From Exiguobacterium sp. s146 (GTDB lineage Bacteria; Bacillota; Bacilli; Exiguobacteriales; Exiguobacteriaceae): a DNA stretch of 64,000 bases. Location of the stretch: NCBI RefSeq assembly GCF_018618415.1, contig NZ_JACSMA010000002.1, positions 310,001-374,000 of the forward strand, written 5' to 3'. Under the pieces are notes generated by a model. It had not been told where the DNA came from, made no database searches, and worked only from the letters and a program-made list of their open reading frames with translations. Of the stretch, positions 872-5,923 are shown piece after piece. Both the position numbers and the translations under genes were made by a program. Within the stretch, counting starts at the first letter, position 1, and each line of letters opens with the position of its first letter.

Positions 872-2200
872 TTATACCTCTTTCTTGAATGCGGCGATAT
901 AGAAACCGTCCGTCCCGAACGACGTCGGGAGTAATTTGAGTTCAGCGCGGTCCGATGACACCATCGGGCGCAATACTTGTGGAAGACGGTCTTGGAGTGT
1001 CTCATCCCACGTCAATCCGTTCGACAAAATGTAATCGGCCTGCTGTTCATTCTCAGCCGGATCGATGGTACATGTCGAGTACACTAGCGTACCACCTCGT
1101 TTAAGCAGTGGCAAGACGGCGTCAATGATTTCACGTTGGACTTTCGGCAGTCCAGCGAGGGCGGACTTGTTTTTCGTCCATTTGATATCAGGCTTACGAC
1201 GGATGACACCGAGTCCCGAACATGGGACGTCGAGTAAGATCCGGTCGAAGCTCTCCGGTTCAAATTTGTCCCCGGCCTGACGGGCATCGAGGGCAAGTGC
1301 AGTCACTCCATCGATATGCAGACGCTTCGCTTGACGTTCAATCAGCTTCGCTTTATGCGGGTGTAAGTCGAGCGCGACGAGCGTCCCGCCGTCCATCCGT
1401 TCCGCCGTATGCATCGCTTTCCCACCTGGGGCGGCACACGCGTCGAGCACGCGTTCCATCTTCCCGGCTTGAAGCGCATCGGCGACAATCATCGAGCTCT
1501 CGTCTTGAATCGACAACAAGCCCATATCGATGAACGCCGTCGCATGCACGTTTCCAGATTCGATGATGAGACCGTCCGCTGACAGCTCCGAACGTGTCGC
1601 CACGACATCGACTTCAGCGAGCCGCTCCATCATCTCTTCGACGGTGACGCGCTGGCGGTTCACCCGGACCGTGACCGGCGCCGGCTCATTGTTCAACTTA
1701 CACATCGCCTCGGTCGCTTCGACACCATACGTCTCGACCCATTCGGCGACGAGCCAATCCGGATGGCTATGTTCGATGGCAATCCGTTCGGCGTCCGGCA
1801 ACGTGCTCAAATCCGGGAATCCGTCCCGGATGACGTTGCGCAACACACCGTTGACAAACTTACCAGTGCCCGAGTGGCCCCGTTTTTTCGCAATCTCGAC
1901 CGCCTCATGCAAGACGGCGCGATCCGGGATCTTGTCGAGATAAAACAGTTGATAGACACTCATCCGTAAGAGCGGTAAGACGAATTTGTCCAATTTTTTA
2001 GGGTTTTGGACCCGCTTCTCTAAAATATAATCGAGCGTCCGTTTCCGACCGAGTGTCCCGTAGACGAGCTCGGTGTAGAGGCCGACGTCTTTCGTCGCCA
2101 ATTTCTTCTGTTTCAATAAATCGTTGACCGCAATCGTCGAATAGGCACCGCCTTGTTCGATTTTGATTAGTGTATCCAGTGCTGCAACTCGTACGTTCAT
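872..2200 (-). CDS. rsmB: RsmB, 16S rRNA cytosine-C5 (m5C967) methyltransferase
   Basis: 442 residues, usual family length. An N-terminal NusB-like RNA-binding domain (about residues 1-140) precedes a Rossmann-fold SAM methyltransferase. The SAM motif DACAAPGGK is near residue 254, and the two m5C-methyltransferase cysteines appear in DVPCSG and YSTCT. It modifies C967 of 16S rRNA in the cytoplasm. The start is ATG with a GGAGG site that overlaps the TAG stop of the preceding def-fmt gene, so translation is likely coupled. No odd features. Confidence 0.95.
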
Positions 2201-2201
2201 A

Positions 2202-3587
2202 TTATCCTCCTAGTCGATCGCCGACTTGTAACTTTTGGCCGGCCCCACGCATGAAGGTGGCCCCGTCCATTCGCTTTTTACCAGATGGTTGCAAGTCGAC
2301 CACTTTTATGGCGACCCCGTCGCCTGTCGCGACGACAAATCCATCCTCTTCAAGCCGGAGAATCGTTCCCGGTTCACCCGTCCCTGTCGTTTTCGACCCG
2401 AAGAACAGTTTGACCCGTTCCCCGGCAATCGTCGTATACGCCGTCGGGAACGGATTCATCCCTCTGATGTGGTTATAAATGTCTGCACCGGAACGGGTCC
2501 AGTCAATCTGTTCCCGCTCCCGGCTGATGTTCGGTGCGAACGTGACGTCACGCTCGTCTTGTGGCACGGCTTCAATCCAACCAGCAAGGAAGGCCGGAAG
2601 CGTCTTGAGCAACAAGTCCGATCCTGCGACCGCGAGCTTGTCGAACAACGTGCCGACCGTGTCCGCTTCTTCAATCGGGACGACCGTGTTGGCGATCATG
2701 TCGCCGGCGTCGAGCTTATCGACCATATACATGATCGTGACGCCCGTCTCCTTGTCCCCGTCGAGAATGGCCTGATGAATCGGCGCGCCGCCGCGATGTT
2801 TCGGCAAGAGTGAGGCGTGCACGTTGATGGCGCCATGTTTCGGTGCTTCTAGCAGTGCGGTCGGGACGATTTGTCCATACGCCGCCGTCACAATCAAATC
2901 GGGCTCGAGTGCCAAGATGTCCGCATAATCGGTCCGCACCTTCTCAGGCTGCAAGACCGGGATATTATGGCGCAGGGCACACTCTTTCACCGGCGTCGGT
3001 TTCAGTTCGCGTTTTCGTCCGACCGGTTTGTCCGGTTGCGAGACGACACCTACGACATTGTATCCTTCTTCGAGCAAGCGCTCAAGTACGGATACGGCAA
3101 ACGTCGGTGTGCCCATGAAGACGATGCGTTGATCCGTCCCTTTGTCCGGCACGGCGAGCTTGTCTGTGAACAAGACCCCGTCCAAATGGTCGATCTCATG
3201 TTGAATCGCCCGGGCGAAAAATCCGCTCGCCTTCACTTGTTGGGTGCGGCCCTTCAAATCCTGCGTCTTGACGACGATCGTCTCATGCCGTTCGACGAAC
3301 CCGAATTCCCCCGGGATGCTCAAACAGCCTTCGAGACCGACCTCGGTCCCCGACGTCTCGATGATCTCCGGATTGATCAACACGAGCGGTCCCGTCTCAT
3401 CATCCGTATGGACGACGGCGAGCCGTTGGTTCAAATTGACCTGTGGGGCGGCCACGCCGACCCCATCATATTCATACATCGTGTCGAACAGTCGATCGAC
3501 CGTCTGACGCAATTTTTTATCAAACTTTGTCACCGGATCACACGTGACCCGTAAAATCTCATTTGGAATCTCTACAACTTTATACAT
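2202..3587 (-). CDS. Fused peptide deformylase / methionyl-tRNA formyltransferase (Def-Fmt)
   Basis: One uninterrupted 461-codon frame carries two normally separate enzymes. Residues 1 to about 150 are a peptide deformylase with all three metal/catalytic motifs: GVGVAAPQ (42-49), EGCLS (86-90) and HEIDH (130-134). From about residue 154 it continues directly into methionyl-tRNA formyltransferase (RIVFMGTP, then [15 protein letters not shown] at 255-269 and DAGD around 293-296, containing the Asn, His and Asp expected for catalysis). There is almost no linker. The two domains perform opposite reactions on the N-terminal formyl group: Fmt adds it to initiator Met-tRNA and Def removes it from nascent chains. 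The ATG at 3587 follows GAGGTGG by 6 bases; a GTG 15 bases upstream is less likely. Both domains look intact. In B. subtilis def and fmt are separate neighbours here, so gene fusion by stop loss is the probable origin. Confidence 0.93.
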
Positions 3588-3598
3588 CTGGTTCCACC

Positions 3599-5923
3599 TC
3601 ACATGAATACGTATGGGTTTACGTCGATACTCAATTGATATTCTTTTTTGCTGATTGCCTTCGCCCGTGCCTGTTGCAGCGTGGCGAGGACCGGATATAA
3701 CGCTTCCGGATGTTTCGTCTTGATGAACAGTTGATAGCGGAACATATTTTTTAACTTCGACAATGGAGCCGGCATCGGCCCGTTCAGTCGTGACTGGGCC
3801 ACGTGCGCCTCGACGAAATCGGCGGCGAACAGCTCGGCCTCGGCTTGGGCGACGAGCGGACTTTCCGCCGCGAACGTGACGAGCGTGACGTACCAGTACG
3901 GGGGATGATTGCCGACTTGGCGCAATTGCATCTCTCGCGCGTAAAACGACTCATAGTCGTGCTCGCTCGCCGTCTCGATGACGTAATGGTCCGGGTTGTA
4001 CGTCTGAACATATGCCTCGCCCGGCAAAGTGCCGCGTCCGGCCCGACCGGCGACTTGGGTGACGAGTTGGAACGTGCGCTCGGTCGCCCGGAAATCGGGC
4101 ATGCCGAGCGTCGCATCCGCCGCGAGCACGCCGACGAGTGTGACGTTCGGGAAATCGAGCCCTTTAGCGATCATCTGGGTGCCGAGCAGGATGTCGGCCT
4201 CCCCGTCCTCGAAACGCTTCAACAGTTGTTCGTGTGATCCTTTGCGGGACGTCGTATCTTGGTCCATCCGAATGATCCGCGCCTCGGGGATGCGATTTAA
4301 CAGCTCGGTCTCAATCTTTTGCGTACCGGTGCCGAACTGTTTGATTTTCTTACTGTCACACGTCGGGCATTTGGACGGCATCCCAATCTCGTAGCCACAA
4401 TAGTGACATTTAAGCCGGTCACCGTGTTGATGATACGTCAAGTTGACGGCACAGTGCGGGCAAGTGAGTCCTTCCCCGCAATCGCGGCACATGACGAACG
4501 TCGTGAAGCCGCGCCGGTTGAGCAAGATGACGCACTGTTCTTTTTTGGCGATGCGGTCGTTGATGGCGACGAATAAATCTTCTGAGAACATCGTCGTGTT
4601 ACCTTTGGCGAGCTCGCGTCGCATATCGATAATATGGACCGGCGGCATCTCGCCGCCGTACCGTTCGCTCAACTGCAAATAGCGATAGACGCCTTTTTGG
4701 GCGCGGGCGTAGGATTCGAGCGACGGGGTCGCACTTCCGAGGACGACCGGGCAGTCGTGATACTGGGCCCGCCAAATTGCGACGTCACGCGCATGATAAC
4801 GCGGGTTCTCTTCTTGCTTGTACGTCGTCTCATGCTCTTCGTCTAAGATAATGAGCCCGATGTTTTCGAGCGGTGCGAAAATCGCGGAGCGTGCCCCGAC
4901 GACGACGTCGACTTCACGTCGTTTGATTTTGCGCCACTCGTCATACTTCTCTCCTTGCGACAAGGCGCTATGAAGCACGGCGACGCGGTCGCCGAAGCGG
5001 CGTTTGAATCGTTTGACCATCATCGGCGTGAGCGAGATTTCCGGGACGAGCAAAATCGCCTGTTTGCCGTCGTCGACGACTTGTCCAATCGCCTCTAAAT
5101 AGACCTCGGTCTTTCCGCTACCGGTGACACCGTGCAACAGTAACGTCTCCCCGGCTTCGGCGTCGCGGATGGCGTGGACGGCCGTGGCTTGACTGTCGTT
5201 CAGTTCGACCGTCTCGATGACCTGTTCAATCGTGGCGTACGGGTCGCGGTTCAGTTCGACCTCGGTCACTTTGACGGCACGGAGCGACTCCATCTTTTGC
5301 AGTTGCGCGCGCGACAAGCCGATTTGACGTAACGACGACCAATACATCCGCGGGACGTCCTGCAACAACTGAATCGCCTCTTGTTGTTTCTTCGCCCGGG
5401 CCGGGATGAGCGTCGCATCAATCAGTTCGATGACGAGGTCCGTCTTCACCGTCCGTTTTTCTTTTAACACCGGTGCGAGCAAGATGTCCCCTTTTTTGGC
5501 GAGCGCCAAGATGATGGACTGCGTCTCTTTCGGATACTCGGAAAGATGGGTACCGGCTCGAACGCCGTCCGGGAGCATCTCGCCTTTAATCTCTTTGTCG
5601 TAGCTCACTTTTAACGCTGCCGGCAACATGGCGAGAAGTGCCGATGACCGGAAGCAGAGCGTCGTCTCTTTCACGTGGGTCGATAAGTCGAGCAACTCGT
5701 CCGTCAAAGACGATTCTTCATCTAATAGGGCCTCCAGCGGCTTTAACCCGTCGCGCGTCCCTTCGGAGACACCGGTGACGATGCCGAGCAGGCGTCGTGA
5801 TCCGAACGGGACCGAAACGCGCATGCCCGGTTCGATTAACGTCTTGAACTGGGACGGTACTTCATAATCGAACGGGCGGTCGATCGTGATGACGGGCGCG
5901 TCGACATGAACGTGGGCAATCAT
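3599..5923 (-). CDS. priA: PriA, primosomal replication-restart helicase
   Basis: 774 residues, slightly short of the B. subtilis protein but with all domains. An N-terminal fork-binding region is followed by a superfamily 2 helicase core with Walker A GVTGSGKT and the DEEH box. The PriA-specific zinc-binding insertion contains four CxxC pairs (CRDC, CPHC, CHYC, CPTC). It loads the replicative helicase at stalled forks. The stop lies 11 bases before the def-fmt ATG, and the def-fmt Shine-Dalgarno sequence begins at the priA stop. Upstream it overlaps coaBC by 4 bases (ATGA-type), indicating one operon. Confidence 0.95.

Follow-up and report, generated by a model that had tools for sequence, protein, structure and literature searches.

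Does a single reading frame that holds both peptide deformylase (PDF) and Met-tRNA formyltransferase (FMT) specify one working bifunctional enzyme, and how did such a frame come about? The frame lies in a 64,000-nucleotide stretch of DNA from Exiguobacterium sp. s146, hereafter the window. The genome is 2.85 Mb in size, and the named loci nearest to the window's gene are from Exiguobacterium, at 99% identity. Deformylase serves as a drug target, and for most bacterial proteins these two enzymes act at either end of synthesis. The reading that we favor, at a probability of roughly 85%, is that of a genuine bifunctional enzyme made from two operon neighbors, whose domains are largely independent and are produced 1:1 from one protein. 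The locus is laid out as follows:

872..2200, minus strand: rsmB, downstream neighbor (profile match)
2202..3587, minus strand: fused def-fmt coding sequence, 461 codons plus TAA, with zero stops in all 38 family genomes
2205..2210, minus strand: GGAGGA, the final two Gly codons of the fusion and, from the sequence, likely the Shine-Dalgarno stretch for rsmB (ATG 2200)
2205..3128, minus strand: Met-tRNA formyltransferase, PF00551 at residues 154–329 and PF02911 at residues 353–449 (profile match; PDB relatives 4iqf and 1fmt/2fmt)
3129..3158, minus strand: linker, about residues 144–153, the sole internal indel site among 38 family sequences
3153..3587, minus strand: peptide deformylase domain PF01327, residues 1–145, with three intact PDF motifs (E 3.4e-49; PDB relatives 1ws0 and 1lme)
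3594..3600, minus strand: Shine-Dalgarno-like GAGGTGG, read from the sequence, overlapping the priA stop codon (3601-3599)
3599..5923, minus strand: priA, upstream neighbor (profile match)

The frame opens with the ATG at 3587, closes with the TAA at 2204..2202, and has no internal stop across its 461 codons. A preliminary description of this DNA had placed it at the correct coordinates and length, without naming the strand, and had proposed that def and fmt share one stop-free frame; the two are indeed fused in frame, and both enzymes are complete. The longest open reading frame starts further upstream, at GTG 3602 (466 aa), but we prefer the ATG because the Shine-Dalgarno-like GAGGTGG precedes it. 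Upstream of the fusion ATG, GTGAGGTG is found at all 38 family loci. The conservation of GTGAGGTG, taken with the overlap between the priA stop and the Shine-Dalgarno-like stretch, makes translational coupling of def-fmt possible, and at the 3′ end of the fusion GGAGGA probably doubles as the ribosome site of rsmB.

The N-terminal part belongs to the peptide deformylase family by its domain match (PF01327, 166.9 bits against a cut-off of 22.8) and by motifs I (GxGxAAxQ), II (EGCLS), and III (HExDH), which are invariant in 23 family members except at a single position in each of motifs I and III. The remainder carries the N-terminal catalytic domain and the C-terminal domain of the Met-tRNA formyltransferase family (PF00551, 147.4 bits; PF02911, 87.6 bits), with 4iqf as its best PDB match; all three scores are far over their cut-offs. 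QHEIDHLDG in the PDF part and LDAGD in the FMT part are both present, the meaning of the FMT motifs, LDAGD included, being presumed. An AlphaFold2 model built on a 117-row alignment has both domains complete (pLDDT 96.7, pTM 0.86), and the block holding most of the linker scores 92; only 23 close sequences gave a poor model (pLDDT 64.9), and the 117-row alignment was used instead. The scores suggest that the two domains hold a set position relative to each other, without demonstrating it.

The fusion characterizes the entire family as sampled. Among 398 genomes from across the class, the joined def-fmt (residues 1-460 or 1-461) runs without a stop in all 38 genomes of the Exiguobacteriaceae, which span two GTDB genera and match the window's protein at 67–100% identity; at the genus level, 19 of 19 genomes match full-length and stop-free at 87–100% identity. 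Outside the family, each of the 57 joined matches listed has at least one stop, and in the other 303 of the 398 genomes the two parts matched separately or were absent among the joined matches listed. In the best 80 named loci, def and fmt are fused in 11 of 11 from Exiguobacterium versus none of the 69 others, one of which (L089) yielded no def in the fetched stretch. Three Bacilli genomes (G056, G051, G060) were considered as further fusions and rejected: they have long frames around fmt, but def lies in another frame.

Gaps among the 38 distinct family sequences fall solely in alignment columns 146–152 (linker) and 463–467 (C-terminus), and they always comprise whole codons. The whole-codon linker differences over 38 genomes rule out a mistake of sequencing or assembly in the junction, an explanation to which we give practically no weight. 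Within the genus, def has a median dN/dS of 0.033 (usable pairs 157/171), the N-terminal part of fmt 0.037 (165/171), its C-terminal part 0.070 (161/171), and the linker 0.077 (just 82/171 usable). By these ratios, both the def and fmt domains are under purifying selection.

The Exiguobacterium fusion is real, functional, and already published, and the window's gene belongs to the published set. According to PMC12690207 (Mol Biol Evol, Nov 2025, msaf311), four Exiguobacterium reference genomes have def and fmt genes that look fused, a second PDF is encoded in every Exiguobacterium genome, and a synthetic, codon-optimised E. alkaliphilum fusion brings a def-fmt mutant of E. coli back to normal growth. 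That rescue, as published, implies PDF activity of the fusion, and the preliminary description's remark that it was not aware of the fusion being characterised is therefore out of date. The features reported there recur here, namely one uninterrupted frame, a second PDF with its critical residues, and an Exiguobacterium host.

A joined frame could still yield separate products, if an internal start supplied some or most of the FMT or if the protein were cut, and the preliminary description had named a linker indel or stop and an internal start as grounds for doubt. In the family sequences, linker lengths (5 to 12 residues) differ by whole codons, and none of the in-frame ATG, GTG, or TTG codons in the linker is common to all members. 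The sole candidate start in 38 of 38 is the ATG of FMG, located within the first fmt strand, which a start there would delete; by eye, no Shine-Dalgarno-like stretch stands at the right distance before it in the window. The dN/dS values, the indel pattern, and the unshared junction starts show that both parts are retained and give no sign of a conserved start for fmt alone. In favor of separate products, some family members do have an in-frame GTG, TTG, or ATG near the junction. In the class of Thermaerobacter marianensis, the second group of fused genomes (below), an in-frame start codon occurs within the 14 codons preceding FMG at 54 of 68 fused loci, a Shine-Dalgarno-like pentamer at 42, and the two together at 35; these are raw counts, and GTG and GGAGG-like words are common by chance at high G+C (72.5% in T. 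marianensis). The published rescue gene was codon-optimised, so a native internal signal would probably have been altered in it. On balance we consider separate products quite unlikely, and we infer that the bifunctional enzyme remains uncut in its native host, with each domain acting independently.

The preliminary description had also suggested looking for further copies of either gene, and the outcome differs between the two. A second def lies at C2:394876 of the window's genome, with GIAAPQ, EGCLS, and QHELDHLDG intact. A second fmt was not seen in that genome, where the other PF00551 hit, on C16, matches the fmt part at just 37% along a stretch of about 87 residues; it probably represents a relative such as purN. 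Further formyltransferase-like frames, 286–290 aa long and ~29% identical to the fmt part, occur in two Exiguobacterium genomes:

G009:C1:630710-631249 (L027): formyltransferase-like frame
G013:C1:1203714-1204415 (L025): formyltransferase-like frame

Two PF01327 matches are present in all 38 family genomes, and the main deformylase of Exiguobacteriaceae is thus not necessarily the fused one. In one Exiguobacterium species (L287, G013:C1:2262200-2263500) the second, unfused def is broken by a stop in motif II, whereas the other family genomes have intact copies; this could be a base-calling error, and if the stop is real, the fused def is that species' only intact deformylase.

With a second def in every family genome, the fused one might be a decaying passenger. 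This is very improbable, given the low dN/dS (0.033) and intact motifs of the def part, the interrupted second def of that one species, and the Thermaerobacter class, where most of the fused genomes checked have no other def.

Zero-stop def-fmt spans also appeared outside Exiguobacterium in a phylum sample of 398 genomes. Reading the DNA confirmed the fusion in 8 of 10 fetched loci, all eight from the one class that includes T. marianensis. Among candidates that were rejected, G564 has a stop-free span over both domains in the search, yet its def and fmt lie in two frames, and L247, L249, and L258 have long frames with def and fmt in different ones. At least 71 of 151 sampled genomes of the class carry the fusion, a figure composed of 61 stop-free two-domain spans (139 of the 151 genomes match) and ten fmt-only matches added by frame checks. 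A script classified 60 of 70 fetched class loci as fused, to which L192–L194 are added, and eight of the 71 are counted from the match span. Many of the class genomes are drafts; the single-contig genomes G451, G405, and G851 are among the fused. A composed-query search of largely the same genomes, all sampled from one phylum, returned no zero-stop span outside the class among the matches listed, and the absence of further fusions holds for those matches. Nor did we find another report of a def-fmt fusion, this clade included, in the open-licence literature (most subscription journals and preprints lie outside it), and the main text of PMC12690207 has no words beginning Thermaerobacter, Limnochord, or Symbiobacter.

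Among 30 class genomes searched with PF01327, 26 are fused, and in 24 of these the fused def is the only match (G802 and G646 have another), an argument that a cell can rely entirely on a fused def. In T. marianensis itself (G451; L187, L199), the fusion is the sole PF01327 protein that the single-contig genome encodes, and the C-terminal part of its fmt contains a long Gly/Pro/Ala-rich stretch. A strict check for five motifs at 83 fused loci, some of which share a genome, found 20 that miss at least one pattern, all in the second class; the 15 Exiguobacteriaceae loci match all five. Such patterns are crude, and we draw no claim about activity for those 20.

The linkers of this class are partly regular. 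There are 58 distinct ones, 29 of exactly 13 residues and the others of 11–73, and the 13-residue linkers occur in 13 families with the consensus A-x-[KR]-[VI]-V-E-[VL]-P-P-E-[ST]-x-L (one row per family), from which f208 and f227 deviate. The positions that stand out are A, P, and L, each in 11 of 13. In a comparison restricted to 13-residue linkers, mean pairwise identity is 0.39 for the linker, lower than for fmt (0.49) and def (0.55). We read the class fusion as one old event with some constraint on the linker, without taking the pattern as proof of either.

The number of origins was approached with a def+fmt tree. Its 106 rows, 60 of them fused, were hand-picked from 188 classified loci to reduce redundancy; the separate genes L247, L249, and L258 of the second class were left out, which slightly favors the fused count. 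Exiguobacteriaceae fall among the Bacilli and all 61 rows of the Thermaerobacter class group together, with bootstrap/SH-aLRT support of 100/100 and 100/99 for the two groups and the bootstrap not fully settled. AU tests rejected a single clade of all fused rows (p 0.024) and did not reject one of the second class's fused rows (p 0.88); these tests used a quick tree, the search for which missed a better second-class topology. At least five changes of state are required on the tree, three of them forced by well-supported branches. It is thus likely, though not proven, that the fusion arose at least twice. The unfused members of the second class within the tree (L205, L210, L262–L266) could reflect later splitting or never having been fused, and L247, L249, and L258 are unfused members outside it; one unfused class genome is, we assume, that of Symbiobacterium thermophilum. 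The occurrence in the Thermaerobacter class is wider than that in Exiguobacterium and probably older.

The preliminary description had proposed that fusion could localise deformylase relative to initiator tRNA or the ribosome exit, or tie the two levels 1:1. These observations bear on whether the fusion is kept because tethering matters, that is, because it keeps FMT close to the ribosome or ties formylation to the capacity for deformylation, in a geometry set by the linker. The probable origin on at least two separate occasions, the 13-residue linker in 29 of 58 cases with a consensus over 13 families, and the high pTM of the model all point that way. However, the 13-residue linker is less conserved than the domains that it joins and two families are off its consensus, the other 29 of the 58 class linkers vary from 11 to 73 residues, the short Exiguobacterium linkers evolve faster than the domains, and chance fusion is easy since def and fmt are often neighbors. 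Tethering as the reason for retention strikes us as rather unlikely. A broader proposal, which we would entertain only tentatively, is that def-fmt fusion is a recurrent, selected architecture with separate origins in Exiguobacteriaceae and in the deep class containing Thermaerobacter; in the latter, one polypeptide would be the formyltransferase and usually the only deformylase, about half of its linkers would be of the 13-residue type with a PPE[ST] core, and the two ends of the formyl cycle would be tied to each other in quantity and perhaps also in location.

Under the bifunctional-enzyme reading, the mechanism is an ordinary one, the joining of operon neighbors. By comparison with unfused relatives, the short def tail, the def stop, and the fmt start would have been lost between adjacent genes in an ancestor of Exiguobacteriaceae. 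The FMT part would formylate Met-tRNA(fMet) in the cytosol and the PDF part would deformylate nascent chains at the ribosome; translation itself lies between the two steps, so a direct substrate channel is not expected. Each domain most likely acts largely alone, with one mRNA and one protein setting the 1:1 ratio. Full independence is harder to square with the model's pTM of 0.86 and with the 13-residue linker that recurs in the second clade, both of which hint at a defined domain arrangement.

What is new here is the second clade, the Exiguobacterium fusion having been known. A natural one-protein version, and a class in which the fused deformylase is mostly the sole one, would make the need for balance or co-localization of formylation and deformylation directly testable, and with it the idea that fusion couples the two activities. 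The fusion also offers a deformylase context without the ribosome-docking helix of the E. coli type.

The same domains are encoded by adjacent, separate genes in the Bacillales, as the preliminary description had stated for B. subtilis: def stops, and then fmt follows. In 68 of the 69 named non-Exiguobacterium loci, def ends 10–21 residues beyond the LFTxK region and fmt comes after it, in the same or another frame. Thirteen relatives are 41–53% identical to the window's protein in def and 55–61% in fmt. The order priA-def-fmt-rsmB is presumably that of B. subtilis as well as of the window.

E. coli PDF shares its Pfam family and motifs with the fusion; its C-terminal helix binds ribosomal protein L22 (PMC8712518). 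In contrast, the model of the fusion predicts just a 4-residue helix (140–143) between the HEIDH helix and the linker. We dropped the notion that fusion cost PDF a ribosome-docking helix, since the def tails of unfused Bacillales relatives are short and mostly acidic, and none is E. coli-like. Compared with PMC12690207, our results concern the same genus, the same gene order, a single gene, and a second PDF; whereas that study treats four reference genomes and tested the E. alkaliphilum protein, ours covers 38 genomes and adds junction anatomy, selection, and a structural model. The Thermaerobacter-class fusion is like that of Exiguobacterium in having def followed by fmt in one frame, but differs in forming a separate clade, in its longer linkers, and in being mostly the sole deformylase found.
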